Part shown: positions 19,690-59,838 of the stretch, piece after piece
Numbering within the stretch: position 1 is the first letter of the stretch
Layout of the letters: every line of letters starts with the position of its first letter
Source of the DNA: Psilocybe azurescens
Lineage: Eukaryota; Basidiomycota; Agaricomycetes; Agaricales; Agrocybaceae
Length of the DNA: 64,000 bases
Assembly: GCA_023853785.1 (NCBI GenBank)
Contig: JAJIRX010000779.1
Span: 496,001-560,000 of the forward strand
Direction of reading: 5' to 3'
The notes under the pieces: generated by a model
Seen by the model: only the letters and a program-made list of their open reading frames with translations
What the model was told of the DNA's origin: nothing
Database searches by the model: none
Program-made: the position numbers and the translations under genes

Positions 19690-22331
19690 ATGGCACCCAA
19701 CGAGGACGATTACTCCGTTGAGCTCACTGTAGCGGAGAAGCTGAGGAAACTGGAGGATCACCTCGACACAATCAATACATTTCGTGCGCTTGCGATATCA
19801 GAAAATTGGGCCTCAGATGAACTTCAGCAATTTCTTGCCCGAATTGATCTGTAAGCCTATCCGCTAAGAATATTTTCTTCCAGTGCACTCATACCAGTTG
19901 TACTTCTAGCCTAGAAAATGATGTCGAGAATTTAAAAACCAGTTTGAAATCAAAATTTCAGCTTGTTCTTCGTCTTGGTAAACCTTCAAAAATAGGGGAC
20001 AAGATGATAGCAAATATTCCGAAGGTTGAACACGACCTTGAAAAAGACTTCAGAGTATGTGTTGGTTACCGATATTTTAAAAACTCCACTTTAACTGACT
20101 TTTCATGCATAGAAGGCCTCAGAGCTTCAACAACGAGTTAACGCGGACCGAGAATTTGTCAATAAACGGCAGGAAGACGCTAAGAAGCACAAGAGAACAG
20201 AATCAGATGTTGTATTTAGAGCTTTCAGGGATGGCAGGCCAACGACGCGGTGAGTTTCATAAATCCATTACGCTCCATATTTCTATGATCATAGTTTTCT
20301 CTCTCCAGATTGAATCCCCCATATCATTTGATCCCGACAACACCCTGGAAGGATATAGGTATGTACTGTCATCATTTTGGATTCAGAAAATTTGAAAATT
20401 CACCATGGCTTGTCCGTCATAGGAAGGGAAGGTAAGCACTTCTAACGGAGGTTACTGCACTGTCCCTTATGTCTATCAAGCGGTCCAGTTATGCAACCTC
20501 TTCACACCCAACAATACTTTCGGTACGTCGTCGTTTGCTGAGCTCATAAAATTTAAATTTGCCTGGAAACACTGACTAGAAAAATTAGTCAATATTTGCC
20601 GCGAGATTCGCTTGACAGTGTGGAATATCAATTTTTAAACGACGATGGTTCTACAGAGGTTGCGCCTTCCTCTATTTCGTCGCGGTATGTTTCTTTATGA
20701 CTTTACTGTCATTGCATTGTCAAGAAGATGGCTTCCTTACGCGTTAGTGCTCATTTGTATGCAGACCTCAAATTAATTTACCTCCAACCGGTCACCCTCA
20801 TAATCGACCATCAATTCGAGAGCCTTCTAAACAGTCTCAAGAACTTCAAGCGGATGGTAGCAAGGCCCCTAGCACAGTACCAACAGAAAGCTCCAACCTA
20901 TGGTCAAAAAGATCTTCACCCCATATCATTCAAGATAAACTCATGAACTCGACCAAGAGAAAGGAAGAGCAGACCACTGGCAATTTCCTGTAAGTGAACC
21001 CCATTTTAAATTGGGCGCTATCATCGGTTGATCCATGCTAGGAGCAACCCTTACATGCATCACTCACTGCACGATGACGGTCATAAGCACAAGTTTGAGA
21101 GCCGAACTTCTCCCAGTCATCACACAGATCGGAATGCCCGGGATGACCACCACCCCGTGGGAAGGTATGTGATCATAGAGCTATAGTCGACGGCTCCCCT
21201 AACAATACACATTCAATAGACAGCACAGCTCTCAGTATATAGGCCAACTTTCCCATGTGGGCGACAACACCAGGGCACCTGAGCAAGCTGGTATGATCAC
21301 TCAGAATTTTAATCAGCCTATCCTCGAAAGGTCCAACTTTAGTGTTTTACTGAAAGAATACGGACTAAAAATTTTCTTCCAAGACGCATTCACGACCCTC
21401 ACGCCCCCGTCCCTAGAGACCGTGCACCACGGCCACCTGGAACCCATCTGTCCACCACTCAAGCATTCTCTAGTGCCCATTTTCAATTCCAAGGACAGGG
21501 ACTATACAGGTGTGCTTTACATTTTTCTGTACTCATGTGGATGTACGTCGTCCATTTAATATTGTATTTAATTGAACAGCCAGCAAGTTCAAACACTCGG
21601 CGATGAAGCTTACTTGAACGAGAGCTTGCCTCCGCCTCCGCGGCGGTCTCCCCGCGACCGTGCACTGTCTGTGGGCACTCGGAACTCTGTTCGGAATCTC
21701 GTCATCGGAAGGTACGCTTTTGAGATTAGGATAGAAAAAGATATTCATGTATTATCGAGGTCCAATGACTCTGTTCAAGCTGGGTTGGAGAACAGAAGGG
21801 TGTTCCAAGGACGTTCGGGTGTCGCTCGTACGCAAAATAATTATAATTTCCCTGCAGGGTCAGTGCCTTAAATTTTCACTTGTTAACCCAATGAAACTCA
21901 TATGTCTCTTACAGTCCCACTGGCTCTCCTTGTGCTCAACACGTAGATGACGAAAATGTCTTTGGACCACATTTGAATCATCCTGCATCATCAGTTCAGT
22001 ATTATCCGATATTCCACTCCGAAAGGTAAATTATTTAATGGGTTTCCCGAGACTGTGCCTTTTTTCTCAAAATGTTTCCGCTAATAATTTGTCTGACTCT
22101 TTGCACCAACGTAGGTCCTATACGTCTAATAATCAAACCGCTACTCAAGCCAATCATTCCGACCAAGCCCATTCTACTGGCCAGCGTCATGCACACAACG
22201 CGCACAATTTTTCAGTTTCGTCTTCAAGAACTTTCGGATATGGAGAGGTTAGTAACCACGAAGAAGGCGAGGGGCCAACATATTCTGGCTGGGTCAACGA
22301 TGATGATGATGATATCTACGGCTCAGATTAG
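19690..22331 (+). CDS. G1: family G protein (helical N-terminus, disordered middle, acidic tail)
   Basis: Not recognised. At least 12 exons with short GT-AG introns; supported ones include 19690-19850, 19910-20054, 20113-20249, 20309-20358, 20581-20684, 20765-20989, 21042-21174, 21220-21330, 21384-21509, 21580-21711, about 21755-21855, about 21916-22025 and 22115-22331. The N-terminal ~150 residues (MAPNEDDYSVELTVAEKL...LENDVENLKTSLKSKF) are charged and helical, coiled-coil-like. The middle is rich in Ser, Pro, His, Gln and Asn, with the family block NESLPPPPRRSPRDRA. The C-terminus reads NFSVSSSRTFGYGE and ends WVNDDDDDIYGSD. Roughly 580 residues, no signal peptide or membrane segment. It converges on the K2 relic 100 bp downstream. 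The frame is open through all exons examined; a tiny exon near 20423-20431 and one near 20490-20525 are uncertain. Likely a scaffold, substrate or regulatory protein (inference). Confidence 0.65.
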
Positions 22332-22429
22332 ACATTTCACTTGAATCCAACATCTCTTATGCCTGCTCTCTCATATGAAGGATTATTACTTTGATACTCT
22401 GGGAATACAAATATAATATCAACACTTAC

Positions 22430-22710
22430 ATAGAATAAATTTTATGACCGTACGAGAGCCACTTCAGCAGTGGCAGGCTTGCTCCGACGAAGGTACCTAA
22501 ATCTACTGGCACAGATAAAATGACCCCAGAAACTGGGATAAAGAGGGGAAAGAGGTGTAACGTGTTCGTAATAGCCGGAGGACCTTCACAGGAAGCCGCA
22601 GTGCAATGTATGTATCCAACCCATAATGATTCCAGTGACGTGATAAGTCCACCATATGGGGGTTTTCCCATAACAAGCAATGTCGAGAGGTCGCCTATGC
22701 GATTTCAATG
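22430..22710 (-). pseudogene. K2: collapsed kinase relic (C-terminal end, spacer and N-terminal end fused)
   Basis: From left: 22430-22530 matches the 3' end of K7 (CTAAATCTACT, GAAACTGG). 22545-22595 matches the region just upstream of K9 at 53700-53760 (GAGGGGAAAGAGGT, GCCGGAGGACCTTCAC). 22600-22680 encodes the K start, MGKPPYGGLITSLESLWV, in reverse. The kinase core is gone. The order suggests deletion between two neighbouring K units. Not functional. Confidence 0.65.
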
Positions 22711-22748
22711 ATTCAGATGCCTGATTTTTGAACGGTGAACGCTAAGAA

Positions 22749-23130: not shown

Positions 23131-23336
23131 CAGCGGCATGAGAGCTAATTTGAGGACAACTCAGACGACTCAGATATATATGTCAAAAGAAAGGCAGGGA
23201 AATCCCGATAGAGAGTCTATAGATCTGACCGGCCTTTCAATATAATAAAATGTTGGTCCTGTTGTCTGTGTACCAAGCAACTACGAAACCACTTTGCGAG
23301 ACAAGATTATGCTACAGAATAATAATGTTACCAGCT

Positions 23337-24647
23337 TCATACACATTCGTAAACATGATTTAATGAATCCATTGTTGACATTGGGGGCATATTCTGAGCC
23401 TTACGTTCTTCGATAGCGGGTTCCCTCAGCCAAATCTCTTGCAATAGATCGGTTGGCCCAAACGAGGAAACTAGATGTTGAAGCAATTGCAGTGCGCCTG
23501 CTGCAGTGGGTCTCATTTCAGGGTCATGATGCGTCATGACTTTAGATAGGGTTTCCAGAAAGTCCAATCCTTCGTACTCCTAAGTGGAATACATCAGGAA
23601 TAGCGGATAAAGAAAAATTGATACTTACTTCGGCGAATCTTCCAACTACGTCTCCTAGTTGATAAACATCCAGCTTGAAGGGATCGTATGGTATCGTAAG
23701 CGAGGAGCCTGGAACATTTTTAACTTGGCCGTAGAATCCAACACACTGCTCGCCTGTGTCAAGTAGTCGGCTGTCTCGTAGTCGATTAGATAGTACTTGA
23801 TGGGTGCAGCTGAGCATCGATCTATGTACTCGATTCGTGTTTTACCATCAGGCTGATAGTAGTTATCTGTGTAGTGAAAGCCACTTGGGATAACATCTAT
23901 GGGGTCCATCATGAAGTTAAGCAGACAGGCATCTCTTATACATAAACACTGAGTATGCTGTTAAAATGGACACTCCGAACACGCACCTATGAGCGATATT
24001 GTGCTCGTGTAAGAACTGAATTCCCTGAGCAGAACAAGGTCACCATAAGATCTTAATTTCAAAGTCACAGTAAATACCTGGATGAGCTGGTTAAGGGCGT
24101 CTAGAACCTCTTTGACATGCAGGAATGGAAGATAACGAGACATGAGAGGAAAGAACATCGGCATGACAAGGAGTACGGATCCCTTCTTCGAGGGGGAGTT
24201 CAATATTATCGGGCAGAGGTAGTACATCGAGGGAGGGGAACGGTATTATTTCTCGGATCCTCGAGCATTTCTGGTGTATTCAAATACTCGAGAATCGGAA
24301 CATTGTCGTTTTCGAGAACGACCCGTTTGATGACCACTCTCACGCCGTCATACTCTCGCACTGCATCGATAAGGTTTATTTTCTAGAAATTAGTCATTGA
24401 GCATCATTGAGCACACCGATTAAGCAGACAATCGACGCTCACAGGTGTTATTCCAAGATAATCAGGGCAGTCGCGCATATGCTTGTAGAAATTCCAGGGT
24501 CTTGTCCAAGAAGGCTTCCAGTTGGGATTATACCGAGGGCGCAACCTATAACCATGTTGTTTCAAGAAGGGCTGTATCATAAGCCAGTCTGCTTCCCAAG
24601 GCTCGGAGTCCATCGTCATGATAGGGGATATTTTTGGTTATCAACAT
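23337..24647 (-). pseudogene. K3A: kinase-like gene with several frameshifts
   Basis: All five K exons are present: MLITKNIPYHDDGL and YNPNWKPSWTRPWNFYKH; REYDGVRVVIKRVVLEND; GIQFLHEHNIAHR; RDACLLNFMMDPIDVIPSG to IDYETADY; and the terminal exon ending SLNHVYECV. Against its twin K3B, it has two extra Gs (near 24185-24200 and 24230) and lacks two bases in the first exon near 24602. Both copies break in the activation segment after ETADY, where the frame to CVGFYGQVKNVPG is lost. Catalytic Lys, Asp and Asn codons remain. Probably non-functional, but the G-run differences could be sequencing errors. Confidence 0.7.
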
Positions 24648-25041: not shown

Positions 25042-26427
25042 TCAAAATTTTATTTTCTTATCGACAAGGCGTTCGAAGGCCTTACAGAAAAGATATCTCA
25101 ACCTACTGATATGTGAAAATAAACAATGGGAACCAGCCTTAACGTCTGGTGGCACGGTCTGGATTACGCGTAATGAAGGAGTACTGTTTCTTAGCCAAAT
25201 CTCTCGGGAAAGATCGGTTTCTTTTAGCGACGAAACAACAAGTTGCAATCTTTCGAGAGATTTTGTCGCAGTCAATCGTACCTCAGGGTTATGAAACGTC
25301 ATGGCTACTCCAAGCGGTTCCAGAAAGTCCAATCCTTTATATTTCTGAGCATCGAATAAGTAAGCAGATTGGCCAGAAACTTCAAGAGATGGTAAATCAC
25401 CTCGACAAACATTCGTACCAACGTTCCAAGTTGGTATATGTCGAGTTTAAAAGGATCATATGGAGCAGTGTGCGATAACTCGGGACATCCCTCTCCTGCC
25501 CGTAGAACCCGACACATAGAGTGGTTGGAGGAAAGTAATCCGCTGTCTCGTAGTCGATTATATAGTATTGAACAGGGCGCCAACTGAGCAACGGTCCCTA
25601 AAATCGATGCAGCGTCTTGCCATCAGGTTGGTAGAAGTCTTCCGGCGTGGTGAAAGCTACTGGGAATTACACCCGTCGGATCCATCATGAAATTGAGGCT
25701 GCATGCATCTCTAGAGAATCGGTTCAATCTGAGTGAGTGAAACCAAGCCCAACTGACATTATGCTACAGCAATACACACCGATGCGCTGATATTGTGCTC
25801 ATGTAAGAATTGAATGCCCTAAAAATACAATCTTTAAGTGAATACGTCATAACATTTTGAGTTATAAACAAGTACCTGGATGAGTTGCTCAAGAGCGTCT
25901 ACAACTTCTTTAGCATGTCGGAATGGAAGATGCGACGACACCAATGGAAAAAGCATTGGCATAACAAGGAGAACAGAGTGCTTTGAATCAACTTCAACGG
26001 TATCAGGTAGAGGTATCACTTCAAGAAGGGGAACTGCGTTGTTCCGGGAGTCCATACGCATCTCGGGAGAGTTTAAATGTTGCAAGATCGCCACATTGTC
26101 GTACTCGAGTATTACCCGCTTTATCCCTACTTTAGCACCATCTTTCATTCGTATTGCGTCGATAAGGTTGGGTCTCTATGCAGACATACATCAGCGAGTA
26201 TAAAACTGACAGATACAGTATCATACTCGTAGTCCAATCCAGTCAGGACAGTCACACATATGCTTATAGAAGTGCAAGGGCCTTTTCCAAGATGGCTTCC
26301 AGTTTGGATGGTACCTAGGGCGCAGCTCGTATCCATGTTCAAGCAGCAGAGGTTGTAGCTCCACCCAACGTGCCTCTGTAAGTGAGAGGAGTCCGTCGGA
26401 ACACTGATCCTTGCTAAGTAACGGCAT
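25042..26427 (-). pseudogene. K4A: kinase-like gene, frameshifted
   Basis: Start MPLLSKDQCSDGLLSLTE, then YHPNWKPSWKRPLHFYKH; second exon RPNLIDAIRMKDGAKVGIKRV and onward to LEQLIQ; terminal exon LDFLEPLGVAMTFHNPE to KKIKF. The HRD exon carries one extra base (HNI then frame loss, where paralogues read HNIAHR), and the next exon shifts after PSSFHH and again near 25570. Differences from K4B include single Gs at 25475, 25567 and 25610. Likely a pseudogene, with some uncertainty from homopolymer errors. Confidence 0.68.
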
Positions 26428-28015
26428 CCGTAAACGCTTAAAGTCTGTTTACAGCAATCTAAAATGTGAAATATTGTGTTCGAACGGCTGGGAGGCCTTA
26501 AGAGGCCAAGAGGTAGGCCTTTTCAAGAGAGCGCGTGTTGGTTTAGACTCGAACCCAGTGAGGTAGAACATCCCTACCTCATTGTGTTGTTTAGTATGAA
26601 CCATGAGAAATAACAAATATCTGAGAACATGCCTGATGAGATGATATCGATGAGACCTAAGGCCTAGATTCCTGCCAGGCACAGTGGACGGGAATTATCG
26701 CAGAATGCCAATCTTGCCGAGTACCCGATCCATCAACAACGACAAATTGTGTGCCCGCAGACATGTAAAATCCTGTGCAATCGAATTAAGGGCATCATCG
26801 ATAGCTAGTCTCTCCCAAAAGGTCTTCCACGTGGCTGGGATGGCTTTTTCTTTACGGGACTAGCTTCGCTCCCCCATATCTTTAATCCTTCTGGCTTCCT
26901 CTCCTGGCTTTGCACTCGAACCGTGGAAATGCTATCATCAAGCTTCTCGCATCTTTCTGGACTTTCAAAACCACCGACTACTCCACAGAAGTCTCTGTGG
27001 TGCCACGGTCCACCGTGGAATAGCTTCTCGCGGGTGTGAACCCTTCTTATTTAGGTCGACGAGACGATTGGTAGGGATGGTCACAATTGCGCTTGACCCA
27101 CTGGCAGTACGTCAAGATGCTTGATAGGTGTAAAGGCACATTTTATGGTATGTGTGAGTCTATCTTGCGGTATCTTTTGTTCTTTCTTACTGATACCAAT
27201 CTCGATTTACACCATTTATTTCCTTTCTCCACGCCATCCTTTTTGCCAGACAATAATTCTGTCTCAATCGTCATCATGTGGAAGCTGTGTCCACGATGAG
27301 ATATTATAATTGGATCCTCTCATCACAGATGTCTCAAGATTGAGTCCGCGACAATCTCCATCTTTGACTCTAAATTTCCAAGAATTAGGCTTCTTCATCT
27401 GACTAGCATGAAGGATGGCTATCCTTTTAAATCATCCTATGGTTTCTGTTCTCTTGACCGTGTGATCGACAGGCTTTTGATTTACAATTTCTCTGCATGA
27501 CGCGTCATTTTAAGACGATTATTTGTATCCGGTCTTTCTGCGGCCTGGTTTCGATCTACATCAAGCAAGTCGCTACCTGCTTCTGTTGTGGTCGAAACAC
27601 GGCAGACAATCAAACCCTGGTATCCTGTGTGCTCCGCATGGCAGGCATGTCTTCTGGGTTTGGGTACCCCTATCTAAAAATCCGCGGACATTCAGTCTTT
27701 TCGAAGGAAAAACTATATTTCCGGGCCATTCCTCTTTGTTTTTCCTATGATAGATACGATTGAAACTTTCTAAACCGTCCAATGGAAAACATGAAAAGAC
27801 GAGAGCTACGTTCATAAACGAACTTGGTGCATACTAGAGTGGGCGCTTAAGCCTTCCACGTTATTTCCCATGGGCACTGCACTTTAATACACGAGTACGT
27901 ACACATGTGTAATCTGATCCTCGAGTGGGAGATGAGATATTTCCGAGTCTTTCTTTGGCGTTCGGCAACGTGCCCGAGTGATCCAATGTGGCTGTCCTTT
28001 TGTTGTTCCACCACT
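26428..28015. other. Intermodule spacer, no gene supported
   Basis: 1.6 kb upstream of K4A. It is nearly repeated at 48050-49690 in copy B and, more diverged, at 53830-54840. It contains a promoter-like cassette ending in a TGGGCGCTT box (27837-27852). Short frames, such as 27497-27763, are shared by both copies but appear in DNA that is conserved throughout, and they are broken in the more diverged copies. Confidence 0.5.
27839..27850 (+). promoter_or_regulatory. Orphan GTGGGCGCTTAA box (copy A spacer)
   Basis: GTGGGCGCTTAA identical to the G1 box, at the end of a ~300-bp cassette, but no G gene follows. A K5 fragment lies downstream instead. Twin at 49498-49509. Confidence 0.4.
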
Positions 28016-28473: not shown

Positions 28474-29809
28474 TTACCATGTCCACTGACACCTGAGAAA
28501 TCTGCTCTTGACTTTAGGAGGTAGATCCTTTGCTCTTATAGCCATTCGTTTCTTCTCAGAATATTTCCTCGGCCATATCTCATTTAGTAAATCTTTCGGC
28601 TCAAGTAAACCAACAAGACTGTGGAAGATTTGGAGAGAATCTGCAGCAGTTGATCTCTGATCAGGGTCACGACATCGCATTGTCTTCACTATTGGTCGCA
28701 GAAATTCCAGCCCCTCGTATTCCTAATCAAACTATGAATAAATCAGCGAATCCAGTTTCATTGAAGAGGCCACAAACTTTAATGAGTTCCCGTATTAGAC
28801 TTCCTAACTGGTATACGTCCAGTTTAAAGGGATCGTAAGGAACTGTGAGGGTCATTTCCGGGATGTCTTGTACTTGCCCGTAAAATCCCACAGTGCCAAC
28901 ACCTGGTGGAAAATACTCAGCCGTCTCGTAGTCAATCATGTAGTACTTTACTGGTGCCACTGAGCACCGATCCTTGTACTCTATCCGAGATTTCCCATCG
29001 GGCTGGCGTGTATTCCTAGCATAGTGGAAACCACTGGGTATAACATCTATGGGATCCATCATAAAATTGAGGAAGCAAGCGTCTCTAATAGTTCGGATAA
29101 TAAGAGGTTAAAGAGGGTACGGGTTATCATTTTTGAAAATATAAATAAAAACAAATGAAAAAACAAACCTATGAGCGATTCGAAGTTCGTGAAGGAATAC
29201 AAGGCCCTAGGGAAAGAGATGTCAAGGTATGGCAAAGTACAAAATCATCGATTCGAACCTGAACCAACTGGTCGAGTGCCTCAACAATTTCCCTAACATG
29301 GCGGAATAAAATATGTGACATGAAAGGGAAGAGCATGGGCATCACAAGGAGCACGGGCGTCGTCAGCTGGCGAGACTTCTCCTTGTCGCTTTGGTAAAGC
29401 TATTACTTCAAGGAGCTGAACGGTGTTGTTCCTAGGGTCCTGGGCGCATTTCGGGAGTGTTCAAGTATTCCAGAACGGGGACATTATCATTCTCGAGGAT
29501 GACTCGTTTTATCACTACCCTCGCACCGTCACGTACTCGGATAGCATCGATGAGGTTGGATCTCTAGAAAGTCACAGTTAGTAAATATGCACAACAGACA
29601 TCTACTTCTTACTGACAAGTATTGAAATAAAATCAGGACATTCAGTCATATGCTTATGAAAGTTCCAGGGCCTTTTCCAGGAGGGTTTCCATTTAGGGTC
29701 GTATCTAGGACGTAGTTTGTATCCGCTGGCTGAGCAGGAAAGGTTGTATTTCGACCCAAAACAATTCTCCAGAGGTAATAAGACCTTTTGTGGGTGACGT
29801 TTGTCCCAT
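28474..29809 (-). pseudogene. K5A: kinase-like gene, N-lobe frameshifted
   Basis: C-lobe is intact: HELRIAHR, RDACFLNFMMDPIDVIPSG, APVKYYMIDYETAEYFPPG, VGFYGQVQDIPEMTLTVPYD, FKLDVYQLGSLIRELIK, then EYEGLEFLRPIVKTM and the end LRCQWTW. The activation segment keeps its frame here, unlike K3, K7 and K8. The N-lobe exon starts RVRDGARVVIKRVILEND but shifts at extra Gs near 29439-29450 and 29369, and the first exon (MGQTSPTKGLITSGELFWVE) shifts near 29735. Copy B differs at just these G runs. Status uncertain: pseudogene or error-laden gene. Confidence 0.66.
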
Positions 29810-30015: not shown

Positions 30016-30488
30016 ACGTGCACCTTGGGTTTGCCTGAAGTTGTGGCTGCATGCATCTCTAGATAATTGATTTAATCAAAGTGAATGAAACCAAGCCCAA
30101 CTGAGGTTATGCTACTGGAAGACATACCGATGCGTGATATTGTGCTTATGTAGGAATCGAATGCCCTGTAAGTACAATTGATAAATGAATTCGTCACAAA
30201 ACTTTGAGTCATAAACAAGTAGCTGGATAAGTTGGCCAAAAGCATCTACAACTTCCCTGACGTGTTGGAATGCAAAATTCCAGACCAACAACGGTAAAAG
30301 CATGGGCACGAAAAGGGGAGCAGAGTGCTTTGAGTTACCCTCAACTGAATCAGGCAGAGGTATCATTTCCCCATGAATCCTTGGCGCATCTCGGGAGAGT
30401 TTAGACTTTGCAAGATCGGCAAGTTGTCGTACTCGAGTATCACCCGCTTTATCACTACATTGACCCCGTCATTTATTCGTACTGCGTC
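30016..30488 (-). pseudogene. K6: N-lobe relic, copy A remnant of K9
   Basis: Reads NDGVNVVIKRVILEYDNLP and SLNSPEMRQ, then frameshift, with LLPLLVWNFAFQHVREVVDA and GIRFLHKHNITHR further left. The phrase LLPLLVWNF is otherwise seen only in K9 (53108-53640), so this is what is left of that gene in copy A. The start exon and C-lobe are absent. Confidence 0.6.
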
Positions 30489-32482: not shown

Positions 32483-34311
32483 ATGCCGTCTCCTCCAAAA
32501 GACCCAAAGGACATTGAATCAGAAGTAGAGATTACACTTCAAAGCCGCGAAAGAGAAACTAGCCAAGCTCCAAGAAATTTCCCGTCGCATCGTGAGAGAG
32601 CCGTGCCACGGTTGCAGAAGAACCTGATGAAAGGATTCGCACCCACTTCCTCTCGAGGCTTGACATGTAACCCATTGATCATGATCTCTCATGCTGAACT
32701 TGAATTAAACTGTATTCAGGCTAGAAGAATTCATCGAAAAGTTGAAAAAGAGTCTAAAAACCGCATGGTCGAATGTGTTCAATAGGAAGCCAGTAGACGC
32801 TGTAAAACTAGCGGCCCTCGATGAGGCCTTGAGGTTGCTCAACAAGGATTTTGAGGTAAGCACTTTATATTGTAATACCCACTCCAACAGCATATTGATG
32901 AAATACTAGAAAGCGTCCTACGATAGCTGAACTCTACAGGACATTATTACTCGAAATGATCGTTCTGTTGCCAGTCTGCATCAGCCTTCATTCATTCGAC
33001 AACCACAGAGTCCTGAACTATACTCCAGGCGGTCATTGCCCCATTTCTCTGAAAGTAAGTTCCAGCAAGAATCCGCCAAATGGAAGGATGAGTTGGCCAA
33101 CAATTATCCGTAAGTACACCTTATTTATCCAATCAGTTACATCACAAAATCAATGTTCTACAGTCATCAGCCGGCCGCTAGACAGCACCTTCCAAGAAAG
33201 TCCAATGCGACCTGTTCCTTCCAATTTTCGAACTGGGCAACACACCCATAATAATGACCATACCGTCAGGAGGTATGAAACTACCTTCATAAAAAGGATG
33301 CGGATGATTAGTGAGCTATATATATGTAGTAGACAGGAAGGCCTTCAGAAATCGGGCCCGCCAAGGTGGAGGCCTGGTCAGACTCCGGTTACAGGCCCTA
33401 CTACTGGTCAGCATTCCATGATCGGAAGGTACGCTATCGAAGTTTTTTTCATATTAACGTGAAGGACATCATGTTCTCAGGATTAATCACGACTCTCGGC
33501 ATCCCGTGTCAGAGCCTGATGGTGCCCAAGAGATGCGTGAAAATCCATACCTCCCATATAGGAATAGGGGAAACTTTCCTCCTTCTCGTCCTTCTGCAAA
33601 TGAAACGCAGTCATTATCAAGGTATGCTGCTTAAAATTCTGCGCTCCTCTATGCTTTCTTCTAAATAAAACACTACTATTGGCATTGCAAGGCACCCCCA
33701 CGATTCTGAACTTGAAGGCTTTGAGCGCTGCCGTTGTACCGCAGGAGAGTCTACCTCCACCTCCACGGTCACATCGGTTCCCACCCCCAAACTTCACCAA
33801 TCAAGCAGCAGATACAGCTCGTGGGCATACAGGAGCTGGTCCGCATAATAGTCAGTATCCCACAGGAGTAAGGTACGCATGTTGTTTGGGGACAGGAACA
33901 GAGACGCTCATACTGCATTTTCAAGGCCTATTCATACCACCCGTCCTTTCTCTGGTCTCCAAATCTTTGGACAAAATATTGATCCGAGCTTGCTGGATGT
34001 ATCATTATTATCCTCCTCTTCATCACGATCGGGAAACACAGAAAGGTGCCTTAAGCCTCAAAATACCTTTTGCTATCCATCACAGGTCTGATTCATTGTA
34101 CTGATACTACAGATACCACATGTTTAATCCGGCTGCTCAAGCCAATCGTTCCAGCCAAGGTCATCCTACTAGCCTGCGCGGCGGACACAATCCACTGAAC
34201 CTCTCAGTTTCATCGTCAAGAACTTTCAGAAACGGAGATGGTTCCGACAAAGATGAGAATGAGGCGGCGGCAGATCTTGACTGGACTGACCATGATGATA
34301 TCTACGATTAG
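32483..34311 (+). pseudogene. G2: family G protein gene, frameshifted
   Basis: Starts MPSPPKDPKDIESEVEI and follows G4 until an extra G in AGCCGCGAAAG (near 32549). Second exon about 32722-32853 reads LEEFIEKLKKSLKTAWSNVF to LLNKDFE. The next has an early TGA (near 32929) before RNDRSVASLHQPSF and KWKDELANNYP. Later exons carry the family block ESLPPPPRSHRFPPPNF, then LNLSVSSSRTFRNGDG and the acidic end LDWTDHDDIYD. The exon-intron pattern is that of G1 and G4. At least two lesions make it a probable pseudogene. It converges on K7. Confidence 0.6.
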
Positions 34312-41357: not shown

Positions 41358-41369
41358 AAGGTTGGGTCT
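41358..41369. repeat. LINE target-site duplication, left (AAGGTTGGGTCT)
   Basis: Matches 47784-47795; single copy at the orthologous site 26164-26175. Confidence 0.9.
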
Positions 41370-41544
41370 GGACCGCTCCTTGATCCGTTACCACGACCAT
41401 CGGCAAAGTTCCCACGCTCATAACAGAGCGAGGCGACTAGTCGAGGGAACGAGCAACAGATAATAGTAGAGCCTTAAGCTCCCTCTTCTCCAATCTAATC
41501 TTACAAAGAACGCTAAAATTACACTACAATCTACATACTTAAAT

Positions 41545-43024
41545 ATGAACATCACTAGCGGCACAGCACGAAACAGGAAAGTCACCCCAGTAACCAGCAC
41601 ATCAGGCAGCAAGGATGCAACGAAGGCACCCGGGAGACAGACCAGAGCCAATGGTCCTGCAGAACTGGTAGAAGGGATTGAGGCTATCAAGAGCTCTAAA
41701 GACGGACGGGTTTTTCTCGAAAAACGGCAGCTACTGGTACCCGAAGGTCGCCCTCTCACCATGGCTATGGCTGGATCCTGCCTCCACCAAGTCATGGAAC
41801 TCTCGCCAAATGTTCCACTACTAGTAATGCAAGGGATGAGGGCCCTGGCCTACTTGATGGAAGATGCAGATCAGGAAGAGGCGACTCAAACATACCACGA
41901 TGGATTCAATTCAGAGCTAGAATTCTTCACGTCAGAACTCACTCAACTTATCAAACACACTCAGTCGAAGGTCGATGCAAAGCTGGACGAAATCTCAAAA
42001 GTCACCGAGGACTTGGCAAAATCAGCCAGGACATCAGATCCACAGAGGCAGAACACCCTAATCGAACCCGCACAAATACTAGGCCGGCCATCGTACAGTC
42101 AAGTTCTTTCCCAACTGCCTGCATCGGCAAGCCCCAGAATGTTAGCAAGACATGGAATACGGCGGCGTCAGCTCATGTTCAAAGGCATCGGACCCAACTC
42201 CAGTATAGAAGGACTGGGCGACCGCGAAATCCGCAACAAACTTAACAAGGCACTCAAGGATTCTGAATCGGCAGATGTTCATTTATGTTCAGCAACAAAA
42301 CAGTGAAACGGGGGACTACTGGTGGAATTCGACTCAGATTATGGAGCTGCATGGGGAAGGAAGGAGGAAAATGTTGCCAAAATCTGCCGAGCAATTGGAG
42401 AGGGCGTGGAGACGCAGAGAAGATCATACCAGCTGATCGCCAAGTTTGTGCCACTCAGCGCAGAACCAGACGACCCCAACTTCATAGGAGAAGTGGAAGA
42501 ATCAAACAGGATGGAGGCCGGAGTCATCACTTCAATGCGATGGGGCGAAGGCTGTCGAAAGACGAAAAGCGAATCAGAAATGGGCTCACCTTATTTTATC
42601 CACTGATAATGTCAACGAAGCTAATCGAATTATTGCTCTAGGAATCTACATTGCCAACAAGAAGGTCTCGGTGGAAAAATGTAAAGTCGACCCTATCCGA
42701 TGCCTGAAATGTCAAGGATATAATCACTATGCAAAAGACTGCAGCGCGGCCGTCAATACATGCGGACAGTGTGGCGAGAAGGGCCACCGAACAAAAGAGT
42801 GCTCAAGCCAAAAGAAGTACTGCGTATCGTGTGCATCAGGGGACCATACAAGCTACGACAGAATGTGCCCCACCTTCCAGAAGAAAGCAGCTGACAAGAA
42901 CCTAGTCACACCGGAGAACGCCCTACCCTTCATCCCCACAGATGAACCATGGACCTGGTCAAACAATCCAGACGCACCACCTGGCACAACACAACGAGAC
43001 GATGCCAACACGGGCGCCAGCTAA
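41545..43024 (+). pseudogene. LINE ORF1, gag-like zinc-knuckle protein, frameshifted
   Basis: Starts MNITSGTARNRKVTP; a 250-residue N-terminal part ends near 42306. A frame change leads to EFDSDYGAAWGRKEENVAK and KFVPLSAEPDDPNF, and a second change near 42590 leads to DNVNEANRIIALGIYI. The C-terminal part has CCHC knuckles: CLKCQGYNHYAKDC, then CGQCGEKGHRTKEC, then a third Cys-rich unit CVSCASGDHTSYDRMC. Family role: binds the element RNA. Ends before 43024; ORF2 follows after about 240 bp. Confidence 0.78.
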
Positions 43025-43262
43025 CCCACATCAGCAAAGCCAGAAGAACACCTCACGAACAAACATGCAACGACGAGCAGAGATCGATGCCATCATTGCA
43101 GCAGCCTCCAGTCCATCGGCAACAGCATCCTTGCCCAGTGCAACCCTTGCCCCAGCCAGCACTGATCAGCTGGACAGCCTGGTAGGCAACACACCTGGGA
43201 GATGGGGCGACACCCCCCTCGAAGACGGCGAGCTACCATCACCTCAACTCACTCAAATTTAA

Positions 43263-46200: not shown

Positions 46201-47398
46201 CGTACTGCACCCCTTTCACCATCCCGAATTGACACAAATAGGGAAGACTCAATGGCACACGAAGTATCCGACATTGCAAACTTCAGAGTATACACTGACG
46301 GCTCCGGTCACAGCGGCGGCGTAGGTGCATCAGCAGTCCTGTACAGAAAAGGTCTTGCAACACCGATCGCCACCTCAAAAGTATACATGGGGCGAAAAAA
46401 CCGAACACAACACTTACGAAGCCGAAGCTGTTGGGGGTATCCTGGCCATGTGGCTCCTTAAGGCGGCAAACACGTCCCCAGCTGACATCATTTCAATCTA
46501 CATCGACAACCAGGCACTTCTCAACACAATAAAATTCCCGAAGGCAAAGTCGGGACAGTGGCTAGTTAACGAAATCGTAAACAATGCTAGGGAGGTCCTA
46601 GGACGAATCAGAATGGCCTGGATCTCAGGCCACACCAACGTCGAAGGAAATGAAGCAGCCGATCAAGTGGCCAAAGTCGCAGCCAGCGGTGCAAGCAGCC
46701 CAAGAGGGGGGATGCCCCCGTGCCTCCGGAGGAAGCTCCCAATCAGTGCATCGGCCGGAGAAACAAGCGTACAGAGAAGAACTGAAAACGATATGGAAAG
46801 AAAGGTGGGACAACTTCGCCGAGAGCAACCCGCTTCAAGCTTGTCGACCCAGACTTCTCGTTCGCGAAGTTCAGAAAAATCAGCTTCAGTCTTAATAGAG
46901 CGCAATCCAGCTTACTAGTACAGGTGCGAACCGGACACATCCCACTAAACGCCCTATTTACACAGGATAAACAAATCTCCAACGAACAAATGCCCTAACT
47001 GCTGGGAGCAACGAGGAGGAGAACGAGCCACAGAAACAGTCAAACACTTCCTCTTCGAGTGCCGGGCATTCAGAAGACTGCGAAGCGAAATGTATCTCAA
47101 ACTCAAAACCGACCGTCCCAGCCTTGAGGAACTCACAACTAAACTGAACATGGCGAAGCTACTATTGAGGTATATTGCCCAAACGAAGGCGTTTCAAATC
47201 CTACAACGATGGACTACTAGAAAGAAACATATCTGGATACGAAGACCAGGACGACAACTAAAACTACGACAATCACGAAATCCCGACCGACACCGACACT
47301 ACGACGACGGGCGACATCAAGAGACGACCACAACAACCCACCCGCCCACCCAAGACCTACCGCTCGACCACCTAACTAACCTTCTACCATCTAGATAG
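43263..47398 (+). pseudogene. LINE ORF2: endonuclease, reverse transcriptase, RNase H; frameshifted
   Basis: N-terminal AP-type endonuclease: LRILQINLNKSEVAHKEL, IILIQEPHI, AGDFNRHHPLWD. A frame change near 43885 leads to the end of that domain (TDHYPIV). Reverse transcriptase from about 44690: LSPHKAYGPDEIPN, AYRPIALLNTTPK, FLDVEGAFPN, GIGQGDPLSMILY and the catalytic YVDDVTIIATG (45385-45420). RNase H from about 46270: VYTDGSGHSGGVGAS, TYEAEAVGGI, IYIDNQALL, ISGHTNVEGNEAADQVAK, all four acidic positions present. C-terminal: TGHIPLNALF, then TVKHFLFECRAF and LLRYIAQTK. Six or more frame changes are needed. Enzyme motifs are intact, suggesting recent activity or homopolymer errors. Confidence 0.82.
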
Positions 47399-47783
47399 AC
47401 GTAGCCATCAACCGAACTGTGGAAACCCACCCAAAAACATCGAACATCCGTGGACGAGATCTGAGCACCGATACGGTCAAAAGTGCCTTCCAAGTAATTG
47501 GACGGGTGCGCTGGAGCAGAAAGATAAGGAAGAAAAGATAAACAGTAGGATAGAATGTACAGACTCACCGGCTTAAGAGGTGGGCCCCCAAACGGCAGGG
47601 GAACTGTCGGGCCTAGAAGGGGGACGTGAGGGCCCTCTGAGGTGCTGAGGGCAACCAAAGACAAAGCGGCGAGTGGCCCAGTCAGACTGGGCCAAAATCT
47701 TAGATGTAAGTAGATACTAAGCCAAGGTAGGGGACCGCCCCTCAGAGGCTATAAAATAACATAAAAAAAAAAAAAAAAAAAAA

Positions 47784-47795
47784 AAGGTTGGGTCT
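47784..47795. repeat. LINE target-site duplication, right
   Basis: Begins within the end of the A run, so the two leading A bases could belong to either the tail or the target. Confidence 0.85.
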
Positions 47796-48049
47796 CTATG
47801 CAGACATACATCAGCGAGTATAAAACTGACAGATAAAGTATCATACTCGTAGTCCAATCCAGTCTGGGCAGTCACACATATGCTTATAGAAGTTCCAGAG
47901 CCTTTTCCAAGATGGCTTCCAGTTCGGGATGGTACCTAGGGGCGCAGCTCGTATCCATGTTCAAGCAGAAGAGGTTGTAGCTCCACCCAACGTGCCTCTG
48001 TAAGTGAGAGTAGTCCGTCGGAACACTGATCCTTGCTAAGTAACGGCAT

Positions 48050-49689
48050 CCGTAATCAGGTTTACAGCAATCTAAAATGTGAAATATTGTGTTCGAACGG
48101 CCAGGGAGGCCTTAAGAGGCCAAGAGGTAGGCCTTTTCAAGAGCGCGCGTGTTGGTTTAGACTCAAACCCAGTGAGGTAGAACATCCCTACTTCATTATT
48201 ATTTAGTATGAGCCATGAGAAATAACAAATATCTGAGAACATGCCTGATGAGACCTAGATATCAGATTCATGGCAGGCACAGCCCCAATCATCCAGATTA
48301 GTTGGGTCGAGACTAGCGTTGGTTCGATGAATCATAATGTGTAGGCGGAATGGATGGATGGGAATTATCGCAGAAATGCCAATCTTGCCGAGTACCCGAT
48401 CCATCAACAACGACAAATTGTGTGCCCGCAGACGATCATCGATAGCTAGTCTCTCCCAAAAGGTCTTCTACATGGCTGGATGGCTTTTCTTTACGGAACT
48501 AGCTTCAGCTCCCCCGCATATCTTTAATCCTTCTGGCTTCCTCTCCTGGCTTTGCACTCAAACCGTGGAAATGCTATCATCAAGCTTCTCGCATCTTTCT
48601 GGACTTTCAAAACCACCGACTACTCCACAGAAGTCTCTGTGGTGCCACGGTGGACAGTGGAATAGCTTCTCGCGGGTGTGAACCCCTTCTTATTTAGGTC
48701 GACGAGACGATTGGTAAGGATGGTCACAATTGCGCTTGACCGACTGGCAGTACGTCAAGATGCTTGATAGGTGTAAAGGCACATTTTATGGTATGTGTGA
48801 GTGTATCTTGCGGTATCTTTTGTTCTTTCTTACTGATACCAATCTCGATTTACACCATTTATTCCCTTTCTCCACGCCATCCTTTTTGCCAGACAATAGT
48901 TCTATCTCAATCGTCATCATGTGGAAGCTGTGTCCACGATGAGATATTATAATTGGATCCTATTATAATTGGATCCTCTCATCACAGATGTCTCAAGATT
49001 GAGTCCGCGACAATCTCCATCTTTGACTCTGAACTTCCAAGAATTAGGCTTCTTCATCTGACTAGCATGAAGGATGGCTATCCTTTTAAATCATCCTATG
49101 GTTTCTGTTCTCTTGACCGTGTGATCGACAGGCTTTTGATTTACAATTTCTCTGCATGACGCGTCATTTTAAGACGATTATTTGTATCCGGTCTTTCTGC
49201 GGCCTGGTTTCGATCTACATCAAGCAAGTCGCTACCTGCTTCTGTTGTGGTCGAAACACGGCAGACAATCAAACCCTGGTATCCTGTGTGCTCCGCATGG
49301 CAGGCATGTCTTCTGGGTTTGGGTACCCCTATCTAAAAATCCGCGGACATTCAGTCTTTTCGAAGGAAAAACTATATTTCCGGGCCATTCCTCTTTGTTT
49401 TTCCTATGATAGATACGATTGAAACTTTCTAAACCGTCCAATGGAAAACATGAAAAGACGAGAGCTACGTTCATAAACGAACTTGGTGCATACTAGAGTG
49501 GGCGCTTAAGCCTTCCACGTTATTTCCCATGGGCACTGCACTTTAATGCACGAGTACGTACACATGTGTAATCTGACCCTCGAGTGGGAGATGAGATATT
49601 TCCAGTCTTTCTTTGGCGTTCGGCAACGTGCCCGAGTGATCCCCTGTGGCTGTCATTTCGTTTTTCCACCACTTCAGCCGGATCTCCCT
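48050..49689. other. Intermodule spacer (copy B)
   Basis: Twin of 26428-28015. It holds the orphan promoter cassette and TGGGCGCTT box. No gene supported. Confidence 0.45.
49498..49509 (+). promoter_or_regulatory. Orphan GTGGGCGCTTAA box (copy B spacer)
   Basis: Same as 27839-27850; followed by GCCTTCCACGTTATTTCCCA in both copies. Confidence 0.4.
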
Positions 49690-50205: not shown

Positions 50206-51539
50206 TTACCATGTCCACTGACACCCAAGAAATCTGCTCTTGACTTTAGGAGGTAGATCCTTTGCTCTTATAGCCATTCGTTTCTTCTCAGAATATTTCC
50301 TCGGCCACATCTCATTTAGTAAATCTTTCGGCTCAAGTAAACCAACAAGACTGTGGAAGATTTGGAGAGAATCTGCGGCAGTTAATCTCTTATCAGGGTC
50401 ACGACATCGCATTGTCTTCACTAGTGGTCGCAGAAATTCCAGCCCCTCGTATTCCTAATCAAACTATGGATAAATCAGTGAATCTAATTTCATTGAAGAG
50501 GCCACAAACTTTAATGAGTTCCCGTATTAGACTTCCTAACTGGTATACGTCCAGTTTAAAGGGATCGTAAGGAACTGTGAGGGACATTTCCGGGATGTCT
50601 TGTACTTGCCCGTAAAATCCCACAGTGCCAACGCCTGGTGGAAAATACTCAGCCGTCTCATAGTCAATCATGTAGTACTTTACCGGTGCCACTGAGCACC
50701 GATCCTTATACTCTATCCGAGATTTCCCATCGGGCTGGCGTGTATTCCTAGCATAGTGGAAACCACTGGGTATAACATCTATGGGATCCATCATAAAATT
50801 GAGGAAGCAAGCGTCTCTAATAGTTCGGATAATAAGAAGGTAAAGAGGGTACGGGTTATCATTTTTGAAAATACAAATAAAAACCAATAAAAAACAAACC
50901 TATGAGCGATTCGAAGTTCGTGAAGGAATACAAGGCCCTAGGGAAAGAGATGTCAAGGTACGGCAAAGTACAAAATCATCGATTCGAACCTGAATCAACT
51001 GGTCGAGTGCCTCAACAATTTCCCTAACGTGGCGGAATAAAATATGTGACATGAAAGGGAAGAGCATGGGCATCACAAGGAGCACGGCGTCGTCAGCCGG
51101 CTAAACTTCTCCCTTGTCGCTTTGGTAAAGCTATTACTTCAAGGAGCTGAACGGTGTTGTTCCTAGAGTCCTGGCGCATTTCGGGAGTGTTCAAGTATTC
51201 CAGAACGGGGACATTATCATTCTCGAGGATGACTCGTTTTATCACTACCCTCGCACCGTCACGTACCCAAATAGCATCAATGAGGTTGGATCTCTAGAAA
51301 GTCACAGTTAGTAAATATGCACAACAGACATCTATTTCTTACTGACAAGTATTGAAATAAAATCAGGACATTCAGTCATATGCTTATGAAAGTTCCAGGG
51401 CCTTTTCCAGGAGGGTTTCCATTTAGGGTCGTATCTAGGACGTAGTTTGTATCCAGCGGCTGAGCAGGAAAGGCTGTATTTCGACCCAAAACAATTCTCC
51501 AGAGGTAATAAGACCTTTTGTGGGTGACGTTTGTCCCAT
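50206..51539 (-). pseudogene. K5B: kinase-like gene, N-lobe frameshifted
   Basis: C-lobe intact as in K5A: MMDPIDVIPSGFHYARN, YYMIDYETAEYFPPG, DIPEMSLTVPYD, LDVYQLGSLIRELIK, and the terminal exon ending LGCQWTW. N-lobe: VIKRVILENDNVPVLEYLN then RQDSRNNTVQLLEVIALP, a longer open stretch than in K5A, but lost near 51085-51110. Start MGQTSPTKGLITSG. Of the pair, this copy needs fewer corrections. It could be a functional gene if the remaining shifts are sequence errors. Confidence 0.66.
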
Positions 51540-52555: not shown

Positions 52556-53030
52556 ATGTCTTCTGGGAAAGACGAGAGAAACACAAGCAACTCAGGAATC
52601 TATCAAGACGACCCGGAAGACGATATTGATCTCGTCAATTTTCTGGTGTCCGACTCGGACGACGTTTCAACAGACTTCAATGAAGGTGGAGCTACCGACA
52701 ACAGTCGACGGAAGAAACTGTGTAAGCTAGACAAGTATCTTCAGGATACCGCCAAGCTTAGGAAGGCTGTTTATAACCAGCTATGGAGTGAGGATGTACG
52801 AAAGCCAACACAGGTCTTATACGTCTAACAATCAAACCACTGCTCAAGGCAATCATTTCGACCAAGGGCATTCTACTGGCCAGCATCATGCACACCACGC
52901 GCACAGCTTTTCAGTGTCATCTTCAAGAACTTCCGGATATGGAGAGGTTAGTAACCCCGAAGAGGGCAAGGGGCCGACACGCCCTGGCTGGGTTAACTAT
53001 GATGATGATGATATCTACAGTTCAGATTAG
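52556..53030 (+). pseudogene. G3: family G gene with internal deletion
   Basis: First exon reads MSSGKDERNTSNSGIYQ, an acidic stretch and KLDKYLQDTAKLRKAVYNQL, matching the N-terminal helix of G1 (KLEDHLDTINTFRALAISEN). At about 52797 it jumps directly to the last G exon, SYTSNNQTTAQGNHFDQG, then HSFSVSSSRTSGYGE, ending NYDDDDIYSSD at the TAG. The two parts are in different frames and the 18 bp between GT and AG is too short for an intron. All middle exons are gone. It could make a short N-terminal protein of about 90 residues. Confidence 0.6.
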
Positions 53031-53107
53031 ACAATTCACACGAATCTAACATCTCTTATGCCTGCTGTCTCTTATGGAGATTGTACTCTTTGGATGAAAA
53101 TATGATA

Positions 53108-53640
53108 TCAACAGTAATGGAACGCTAAATCTACTGGCACAGATAAGTCAAAAGCGTCGACAATTTTCCTGACATGTCGGAATGGAAAATTCCAGACTAA
53201 CAACGGTAAAAGCATGGGCAAGAAAAGGAGAGCAGAGTGCTTTGAGTCATCTTCAACTGAATCAGGCGAGGTATCATTTTTCCGAGAATCCTTGCGCATC
53301 CCGGGAGAGTTTAGATGTTGCAAGATCGGTGAGTTGTCATACTCGAGTATCACCGGCTTTATCACTACGTTGACCCTGTCATTTATTCGTACTGCATCAA
53401 TAAGTTTATGTGTCTATGGCGGTATATGTTAGCAAATATATACATTTAGCAAATAATGTGTCGTAGTCGCAGTACAATGAAGTCAGGACAGTCAAACCTA
53501 TATTTATAAAAGTTCCATGTCCTTTTCCAAGACAGCTTCCAGTTTGGCTGATATCTGGAACATAGCTTGTAGCCATTTTAAATCAGCAGGGGCTGCAGCT
53601 CCGTCCAACGTGCCTCTGCAAGTGAGAGGAATCAGTTAAT
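53108..53640 (-). pseudogene. K9: kinase-like relic lacking the C-lobe
   Basis: Start-exon sequence near 53470-53610 (PSWKRTWNFYK-like, degraded) and an N-lobe piece: NDRVNVVIKPVILEYDNSP, LQHLNSPGMRKDSR, LLPLLVWNFPFRHVRKIVDA. After that it runs straight into the short 3' end sequence (CTAAATCTACTGGCACAG). The catalytic loop and activation segment are deleted, and the lysine motif is VVIKPV. Partner G3 in the same module is also internally deleted. Confidence 0.6.
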
Positions 53641-56513: not shown

Positions 56514-58381
56514 ATGTCTCCTCCTCCAAAGAACCCAAAGGACATTGAGGCAGAAGTGGAGATTAAACGCCAAAGCCGCAAAGAGAAGCTGGCTAAACTC
56601 GAAGAAATTTCCCGTCGCATTGAGGAGAGCCGTGCCAAGATTGAACAAGAGCCTGACAAAAGGTGAAAAATGACTACCTCTCGCAGCTTGACGAGTAAGT
56701 CACTGATTATGATTTTTCACTCTGAACTTGAATTATATTGTTTTCAGGCTTCAAACACTCATCGAAAAGTTGAGAAAAGGTTTGAAAACCGTATTTTCAG
56801 ACTTGTTCAATAGGATGCCTGTAGACTCCGCAAGACTCATCTCCCTCAACACAAACTTAACAACGCTCAACAAGGATTTTGATGTGAGCATTTTATATTG
56901 TGATTCTCACTCCAATATATTGATGAAGTAGTAGAAAGCATCCCAGGATAGTCGGGCGCTCTACGGGATACCATCCTGGGGCATAATATTTCCTATGCCA
57001 GTCTACGTCAGCCTTTCATCACTCGGCCGCCCGAAAGTCCTGAACTTCATTCCAGGCAATCCTTGCCCCATTTCTCAGGAGGCAGGCACCAGCAAGGGTC
57101 TGCCAAATGGAAAGATGAGTTGGCCAAAAATTATCCGTAAGTGCAACTTATATGCTTCACCAGTTATATCATAAATTGATGTTCTACAGTCATCAGCCGA
57201 CACCAGATAGCACATTTCAAAGTCAAGCGCAGCAATTGCCATCCAATTTTCAAACTGGGCCACATGCCCATAATAGTCAGTATACAGTCAGGAGGTACGA
57301 AGCATAATACCGCACTATAGTGCGGACAAATCCTGAGATAATTATAAGCAACAGACAGCAAGGCCCTGAACAATCAGGCCAACTTGAGTGGAGACCAAGA
57401 CCTGATCTGGATCAGGCGACTACTATAAGTCTCGGAGGTCAGAACTCCATGACTGAAAGGTGCGTGTTCGAGTTTATTCGTTTTTTCAGACATTGAAGAG
57501 AAGAATGTGTTCTCAGAAGTGATCATGACTCTCGGTATCCCACATCAGAACCCCATCTCCCTGAGGCGCTGTAGAAATCCGTACAGGAGCGTAGGAACCT
57601 TTTCTCCCTCGTCGTTCTGCGAACGAGATGCAACCAGCATTAAGGTACGCCACTAAAAATTCAATACACTCTCACACCCTTCTAAATTAAATTTTGTTGG
57701 TGATTATCGGCATATTCTAGCAGCCAAGAATTACCATCTGTGGGTTTCCCCCGTGGCCCGCCGCTGCCATGGCCATCCCGAGATCCTGAAGACTTGCAAA
57801 ACGCCATTGATTTACAAGAGAGTCTACCTCCGCCTCCACGGTCACACCGTTTTCTGCCTCCAAACTTTGCCAATCAAGCAACAGATCGAACTCGTAGGAA
57901 TACAAGAACTAGTCAACATAGTGATTGTGATCCTACAGGAGCCAGGTACATATAATCCTTGAAGACGGGAATAGAGACGCTCACAATGCATTTTCAAGGC
58001 CTATTCACACCGGTCGTCCTTTCTCTGGTCTCCAAATCTTTGGCCAAACTATTGACTCGAGCTTACTCGATGCAGCGGCATTATCCAATTCTTCATTCCA
58101 AACAGAACACACTGAAAGGTGCCTTGAGTTTTTAAAAAATATTCCGCTGTCATCATATATCTGACTCCTTGCACTGATACCACAGGTCCTATATGTCTAA
58201 CCCGGATGCTCAAGCCAATCGTTTCAGCCAAGGTCACACTACTGGTCGGCGTGGTGGACACAGCTCACTTAACCTCTCAATTTCTTCTTCAAGAACTTTC
58301 GGAGTTGAAGATGACTCCGATGAGGAAGAGGCGCCGACACACCCTGGTTGGCCTGCTAACCATGACGAATTCTACGAGTAG
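56514..58381 (+). CDS. G4: family G protein gene, mostly open
   Basis: Starts MSPPPKNPKDIEAEVEIK; the first exon is a strong coiled-coil (KLAKLEEISRRIEESRAKIE). Second exon LQTLIEKLRKGLKTVFSDLF to LNKDFD. Further exons: SLRQPFITRPPESPELHS, KWKDELAKNYP, PSNFQTGPHAHNSQYT, the family block ESLPPPPRSHRFLPPNF, and the last exon LNLSISSSRTFGVEDDS ending WPANHDEFYE. Introns are short with GT-AG edges; one junction near 56960-56985 seems out of phase. It converges on K8, with 115 bp between stops. No known domain. Either functional or only lightly damaged. Confidence 0.55.
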
Positions 58382-58495
58382 ACATTCTACAAATCAAATA
58401 TCTCATATGCCTGTTTTCTCTCTCTTATGAAGATTGTACATTTTTACTCCTTGAATACAATGATATATCACAACTTAAAACAAAAGATGTTACAA

Positions 58496-59838
58496 CTATA
58501 TGAGAGCCGCTTTGACAAATGAAGGCCTGCTCTGAGCCAGGTATCTAAATCTAGTGGCACAGTGAAAACGATTACAGAAACTGGTCTTAACTTTAGGAGG
58601 AACAGTCTGTACAACTCGCATCTCAGGAGTACTGTCTCTCAGCCAAATCTCTCGGGAAAGATCGGTCTCCTCTAGCAAGGAGACTATATGCCGCAATTTC
58701 TCGAGAGATTTTACTGCAGTCAATCTCATCTCGGGATTCTGGTATGTCATGGCTTCGCCGAGAGGTTCCAGAAAGTCTAATCCTTCGTATTCCTAGAGAT
58801 AGTAAAGTGAGTAGAATGCTAGAGGATTTCGAGCAGTAGTAAAATCACCTTGATAAACATCTGAACTACCGTTCCGAGTTGGAAAATGTCCAGCTTGAAT
58901 GGATCGTATGGAACGGTGTCCGACAACTCAGGGACATCCTTCTCTTGACCGTAGAATCCGACACATAGTGTGTTTGGGGAAAGTAATCTGACATCTCGTA
59001 GTCGATTGTATAGTACTTGACTGGTGAGACTGAGCAGCGATCCCTAAAATCGATGCGCGTCTTGCCATCAGGTTGGTAGAAGTCTTTTGAGTGGTGAAAG
59101 CTACTGGGAATGACATCCGTCGGATCCATCATGAAATTGAGGCTACATGCATCTCTAGAGAATCGGTTTAATCAAAGTGAATGAAACCAAGCCCAATTGA
59201 CATTATGCTATTGAATACACACCGATGCGCAATATTGTGCTCATGTAAGAATTGAATACCCTGAAAATACATATTTAAGTGAATATGTCAACACTTTGAG
59301 TCATAAACAGGTACCTGGATGAGTTGGTCAAGAGCGTCTACAACCTCCCTGACATGTCGGAATGGAAGATGTGGCGACATCAATGGAAAAAGCATTGGCA
59401 TAACGAGGAGCGCATAATGCTTTGAATCATCTTCAACTGAATCAGGCAGAGGTATCACCTCAAGGAGGGTAACTGCATTGTTCCAAGAATCCTTGCGCAT
59501 CTCGGGAGAGTTTAGATGTTGCAAGATCGGCACATTGTCGTACTCGAGTGTTACTCGCTTTATCACTACTTTGGCACCATCTTTCATTCGTATTGCGTCA
59601 ATGATGTTGCGTCTCTAAGGAAGCATACATTAGAAAGTCTATAAATTGGGCAGATAGTAGGTCGTACTCGCAGTATAATGGAGTCCGGGCATTCAAACCT
59701 ACTTTTATAGAAATTCCATGGCCTTTTCCAAGACGGCTTCCAGTTCGGCTGATATCTTGGACGTAGCTTGTAGCCATTGTCAAGCAGCAGAGGCTGTAGC
59801 TTGACCCAATCTAACTCTGCATGGGTAAGCAACGTCAT
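58496..59838 (-). pseudogene. K8: kinase-like gene with activation-segment frameshift
   Basis: Start MTLLTHAELDWVKLQP, then YQPNWKPSWKRPWNFYK; exon 2 MKDGAKVVIKRVTLEYDN to LDQLIQ; GIQFLHEHNIAHR; MMDPTDVIPSSFHHSKDF to YYTIDYEMSDYFPQ, where TTTCCCCAAACACA again lacks one base; then in another frame CVGFYGQEKDVPELS; terminal exon LDFLEPLGEAMTYQNPE to SFVKAALI. Otherwise fully open. If the C run were one base longer the whole gene would be intact, so this copy deserves re-sequencing. Convergent partner is G4. Confidence 0.68.

Follow-up and report, generated by a model that had tools for sequence, protein, structure and literature searches.

A convergent G–K gene junction copied within a tandem array of kinase-like genes in Psilocybe azurescens

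The window, a stretch of 64,000 nucleotides (C666:496001-560000) from the 70.4-Mb Psilocybe azurescens genome (937 contigs), contains between 17 and 60 kb an array of genes of two kinds: a kinase-like family, here called K, and a second family, here called G. The models of both were made from hand-assigned exons followed by protein-guided prediction; a splice-scoring gene finder performed poorly for G1, G2, G4 and K4. Self-comparison and tblastn recovered 12 K places within the array, all on the minus strand, and 4 of these have a G partner. The count includes the relics at 22430, 30036 and 53108, and the K halves at 40342 and 47784 were scored as a single copy, divided by a LINE-like insert. 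The features are the following:

17488..18432, minus strand: Ka, K copy without G (BLAST extent)
19690..22331, plus strand: G1 (ATG at 19690, stop codon 22329-22331), 15 exons according to the P. cyanescens model; orthologue CVT25_013671, 584 of 585 codons placed, 97.9% amino-acid identity
22430..22710, minus strand: K1, truncated relic; K-tail homology of 22055-22536 with 58119-58584 and of 22611-22776 with 18410-18571
23258..24559, minus strand: Kb, K copy without G
25042..26522, minus strand: Kc, K copy without G, five frame breaks
28787..29767, minus strand: Kd, K copy without G (BLAST extent)
30036..30488, minus strand: Ke, K relic without G, 87.5% to K3 over 264 columns
32483..34311, plus strand: G2 (ATG at 32483, stop codon 34309-34311), 9 exons; orthologue CVT25_013672, 454 of 454 codons placed, 97.8% amino-acid identity
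34657..35996, minus strand: K2 (stop codon at 34657), 5 exons; orthologue CVT25_013668, 97.3% amino-acid identity
38447..39782, minus strand: Kf, K copy without G, duplicate of Kb
40342..48253, minus strand: Kg, K copy without G, duplicate of Kc, split by the LINE-like insert
50519..51497, minus strand: Ki, K copy without G, duplicate of Kd (BLAST extent)
52556..53030, plus strand: G3, short (ATG at 52556, stop codon 53028-53030); own first exon and G1-type last exon, 22106-22424 matching 52805-53113 at 83%
53108..53640, minus strand: K3, relic, exons 1-2 only
56514..58381, plus strand: G4 (ATG at 56514, stop codon 58379-58381), duplicate of G2; 59.6% amino-acid identity to CVT25_013672, several codon gaps
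58496..59838, minus strand: K4 (stop codon at 58496), duplicate of K2; 83.2% amino-acid identity to CVT25_013668

The first-pass annotation of this DNA had described four plus-strand G genes, each converging tail-to-tail on a K gene or relic of the minus strand, and its coordinates were borne out. The gaps between stops, put there at about 80-350 bp, were found to be 98 (G1), 345 (G2), 77 (G3) and 114 bp (G4) from the G stop to the nearest minus-strand K feature, the distances at the K1 and K3 relics being taken to the feature start of that annotation. Its listing of the pairs was incomplete in that it named only the K genes beside a G: the four pairs exist, and 8 of the 12 K places are without G. 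Because all 12 K lie on the minus strand, the shared orientation of the pairs adds nothing. Extra K-like pieces outside the 12 were found at 16706-16937 (minus) and 63605-63929 (plus). The insert in Kg (41388-47783) we take to be LINE-like, with RNA-binding, endonuclease, reverse transcriptase and RNase H-like frames that look broken. The relic Ke (30036-30488) is 87.5% identical to K3 (53142-53399); K3 has G3 and Ke is without G, a possible case of G loss.

The four pairs of the window are copies of one another. Positions 30487-36139 match 54507-59989 in three pieces at 76-81%, and G2-K2 and G4-K4 are therefore one duplicated segment; with the insert removed, 23258-30036 matches 38447-51760 at 94-97%. 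G1 and G3 have their last exon in common at 83%, and no match to any other G was found for the first exon of G3. The G-K spacers of all four window pairs align, that of G2 with an extra insert of ~200 bp; the G2-K2 gap is longer because a ~215-bp repeat (34361-34574, with a relative at 15549-15766, 72%) lies between the two genes. Given the duplicated segment and the four aligned spacers, a single ancestral junction was copied, and it is almost certain that the window pairs share a history. The duplication as a whole (23258-36139 against 38447-59989) is a mosaic, with a first part at 94-97% and a second at 76-81%, which suggests either two events or patchy gene conversion.

A database search with the G1 model retrieved a single protein at E<=1, the P. 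cyanescens CVT25_013671, and CVT25_013672, the orthologue of G2, was added by alignment search. No G relatives were found at E<=1 beyond the P. cyanescens proteins P0001 and P0122 (7992 and 7991 word-sharing candidates scored), and none at E<=1 in P. cubensis, the search being word-limited and able to miss a diverged or unannotated G. The models of G1 and G4 matched no Pfam family at E<=0.05, and thus no nuclease or other known domain; that G fits no known family, as was suspected at first sight, is in agreement with these results, the only relatives being those of P. cyanescens. As far as seen, G appears to be lineage-restricted, to the P. cyanescens side only, with two genomes so far. The orthologues of G1, G2 and K2 (CVT25_013671, CVT25_013672 and CVT25_013668) carry no annotation beyond hypothetical or kinase-domain protein, and neither a literature search of titles and abstract openings nor one by four locus tags returned a paper, on this array or on the tags, respectively.

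The codon-based dN/dS of G2/G4 is 0.36 (0.28-0.47, 440 codons). In the plain DNA alignment the ratio is 0.39 in the true frame versus 0.84 and 0.94 in the wrong frames, of which only the contrast between frames is usable, the exon dS (0.67) exceeding the intron divergence (0.40) and absolute dS being untrustworthy. By these sequence measures, i.e. predicted orthologues in a second species and frame-specific constraint on G2/G4, G is a real protein gene. The blocks said to be shared by the G proteins are shared in part: the SSR box and the Asp/Tyr end occur in all four, ESLPPPPR occurs in G1, G2 and G4, and the last exon is all that G3 has in common with G1. The SSR, Trp, Asp and Tyr of the G end are kept in every copy, including the one on contig C758 (see below). 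An alignment of G1-type with G2-type proteins spans 106 residues at the N-terminus (32%) and the last 60 (52%). The structure predicted by AlphaFold for G (two sequences) consists of N-terminal helices followed by mostly low-confidence coil (pLDDT 42), a predicted fold too weak for a fold search.

For K, 122 related proteins were retrieved at E<=0.001, with more than 40 species names among the 120 matches listed; the recognisable names among these we take to be Agaricomycetes. Residue conservation was scored on an alignment of 64 of the 120 listed relatives: D171, N176, D221, P245, E246 and D259 are kept in 64/64, position 76 is Lys in 58/64 and Arg in 6/64, and position 223 (the Gly of DFG) is Gly in 36/64 and Glu in 24/64. 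The HRD is followed by A or C (mostly C) and then x-x-N, without the TK-type AARN. Position R295-296, if it corresponds to the fourth place of the FslK GXR(L/M) motif, is Pro in 48/64 and Leu in 12 and in P0002. The K exons of the window retain the Lys, HRD, Asn, Asp and PE signatures, so that the kinase signatures noticed earlier were found both in the exons and in the 64 aligned relatives. The predicted structure of P0002 has a kinase fold (pLDDT 90.5), and the best 50 matches listed in a PDB search with this model are all kinases or kinase-domain proteins (E from 2.3e-10, query TM ~0.37-0.49). In its catalytic residues and predicted kinase fold, K has the features of the protein kinase superfamily. 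The K model of C758 scores below the cut-off for PF00069 (Pkinase; 23.4 bits, cut-off 31.7), and P0002 bears a precomputed PF00069 label. For FunK1 (Pkinase_fungal, PF17667), like K a fungal kinase-like family with expansions, the K model reaches 12.6 bits at a cut-off of 24.1. Judged by its sequences, K is a kinase-like family of Agaricomycetes whose catalytic residues are conserved.

In a tree that took ten K copies of this genome and left out the relics K1, K3 and Ke, the ten are divided among three lineages (supports 0.92, 0.94 and 0.85), all of which also include P. cubensis sequences, and the K expansion is therefore older than these species. Seven P. cubensis K form the sister group of the G-linked K lineage (support 0.95). 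One 3.3-Mb contig of P. cubensis carries eleven tagged K (JR316_0008845 to 0008945), and no G was detected with them (E<=1, word-limited searches). The codon dN/dS is 0.22 (0.15-0.30) for K2/K4 and 0.18 (0.12-0.25) for K2 and the C758 K; for the recent pairs Kb/Kf and Kd/Ki it is 0.78 and 0.57, with intervals that reach 1. The codon-model estimate is the sole basis of the constraint value for K2/K4, the plain-DNA ratios (0.38, 1.41 and 0.55 in the three frames) being unusable with the break in K2 uncorrected and 8 stops in the reference.

Every K copy, as well as G1, G2 and G4, has at least one frame break with respect to the P. cyanescens proteins: one in G1 (at 20322), four single-base insertions plus one in-frame stop in G2, one break in K2 (at 35135), four in G4 (with respect to CVT25_013672), five in Kc and at least four in Kg; K2 and K4 lack one and the same base in a C run. 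As a control, a gene of the same assembly that we call RPB2 from its sequence was read directly and has two 1-base breaks in ~1.1 kb. For HSP70, 5 of ~11 places have touching matches in different frames that leave no room for an intron, as judged from coordinates only; a control with PF00009 was too fragmented for use. Indel errors of one base seem to be numerous in the assembly and, since RPB2 and HSP70 carry similar indels, the frame breaks in the array prove little about decay. In the light of the RPB2 and HSP70 control, an initial reading of the K copies of the window as pseudogenes was abandoned. Indel error alone does not explain the in-frame stop of G2; truncation marks K1, K3 and Ke as relics, and Kc and Kg are the likelier pseudogenes. 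The fast decay that the first-pass annotation saw in the array is partly assembly noise, and its hint at a conflict or self/non-self locus therefore loses much support. Pseudogene calls made from frame breaks in this assembly need such a control. The frame changes in RPB2 and HSP70 lie at C582:364834-365919, C477:737133-738369, C719:12800-14013, C454:770222-771294, C434:291891-292462 and C631:13658-14487.

Outside the window, a fifth convergent pair was found on contig C758, where a G runs into a convergent K, so that 5/5 G places found in this genome adjoin a convergent K. The rest of the genome contained G pieces on C758 only, save a chance-level match on C41 (E 0.5), and the genome search found no G away from a K. 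On C758, identity to the P. cyanescens proteins is 75% for K (against K2) and 34% for G (against G2); G diverges faster than K, the G figure coming from a poor, heavily gapped alignment. The C758 spacer gave no clear alignment with the four window spacers, and we infer that the C758 pair descended from the same junction as the window pairs. Distant K relatives are present on C529, C426, C320 and C425, the fetched stretches of which contained no G, and distant K-like matches also occur on C201, C603, C683, C695 and C438. In P. cyanescens, the predicted orthologues of G1, G2 and K2 (98, 98 and 97%) are all on one contig of 24,966 bp, and their tag numbers (CVT25_013671, _013672 and _013668) do not simply follow the order of the window. 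Co-inheritance of G and K where both are seen is supported by the sequences at hand. The earlier claim of one co-inherited system is in line with the 5/5 adjacency and the shared P. cyanescens contig, and is weakened by the window pairs going back to one junction and not being independent. A search of relatives gave co-occurrence of the three orthologues in P. cyanescens on one side, and a K that is widespread without detected G on the other.

The account that we propose, and regard as evenly balanced between right and wrong, is that of a Psilocybe tandem K cluster in birth-and-death turnover, in which the G-K junction arose once and was then copied by segmental duplication. An ancestor of the G-bearing lineage would have acquired, on a single occasion, a tail-to-tail arrangement of G and one K lineage, and segmental duplication would then have multiplied that junction. 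More tentatively, and with more doubt than confidence, we suggest that G may be a disordered substrate or adaptor of the neighbouring kinase K: the helical N-terminus and PPPPR motif of G would bind K, the conserved C-terminal SSRTF...DDIY box would be phosphorylated by K, and the two would stay together because they are used together. The conserved catalytic residues of K, the predicted disorder of G and the many Ser, Asp and Tyr residues in its conserved end fit a kinase and its substrate. An obligatory pair is argued against by the many K without G in the window and in P. cubensis, and by Ke, which is related to K3 and stands alone. The low AlphaFold confidence for G and the unclear alignment of the C758 spacer also count against the proposed account. 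G can be viewed as a candidate substrate or regulator of a mushroom kinase, and the locus as a concrete case in which a lineage-restricted, mostly disordered (predicted) protein is physically coupled to one branch of the mushroom kinase expansion.

Linkage within duplicated blocks is expected even without shared function, and it is only a little less probable than its opposite that G and K are each functional, functionally unrelated, and neighbours only via block duplication in an all-minus K array. The pairs as copies of one junction, the 8/12 K places without G and the K found widely without detected G all agree with such unrelated neighbours, against which speak the persistence of the G-K neighbourhood on C758, where K has gone to 75% identity with the K2 protein, and the failure to find a G away from a K. 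That the array consists mostly of pseudogenes, the pairing having no present function, would account for the relics K1, K3 and Ke, the LINE-like insert in Kg, the frame breaks in most copies, the in-frame stop of G2 and the dN/dS of Kb/Kf and Kd/Ki; it is improbable in view of the intact predicted orthologues of G1, G2 and K2 in P. cyanescens, the constraint on G2/G4 and K2/K4, and the comparable breaks in RPB2 and HSP70. Still less probable is antisense control, by which the convergent 3' ends would overlap and each gene would damp the other: gaps of 77-345 bp in 4/4 window pairs suit it, but close convergent genes are commonplace in fungi.

A two-gene killer/antidote or self/non-self system, suggested by analogy, would fit the location of a kinase next to a lineage-restricted, fast-diverging G, in an array with much turnover. 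In SPOK of Podospora, a putative kinase domain is required for resistance (PMC9972908), and SPOK and K are both fungal gene families with a kinase-like domain. SPOK combines nuclease and kinase domains in one protein (PMC9972908), whereas G and K are separate genes and no nuclease was found. As G matched neither a nuclease nor any other known domain at E<=0.05, and as the apparent decay is partly assembly noise, we consider a conflict system highly improbable, and equally so its variant in which a disordered effector G would be controlled by the neighbouring kinase K and diversified in the Psilocybe cluster. Among described kinase groups, FslK is the nearest to K; the functions of the large mushroom kinase expansion are called undetermined in its description (PMC3937382). 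Like FslK as described there, K combines expansion in the Agaricomycetes with recent species-level duplications, truncated copies, largely kept catalytic residues and absence of the TK-type AARN motif; unlike in FslK, many K members have Glu for the Gly of DFG, and the sections of the FslK description consulted mention no G-like neighbour (PMC3937382).

At the right edge of the array (60118-63322) inverted AT-rich repeats of 80-97% identity occur, one of which also matches 47452-47781. Pieces at 13025-14939 and 36632-38444 are presumably P450-like, and have relatives in the flanking stretches L028, L030 and L031 that are up to 92% identical.
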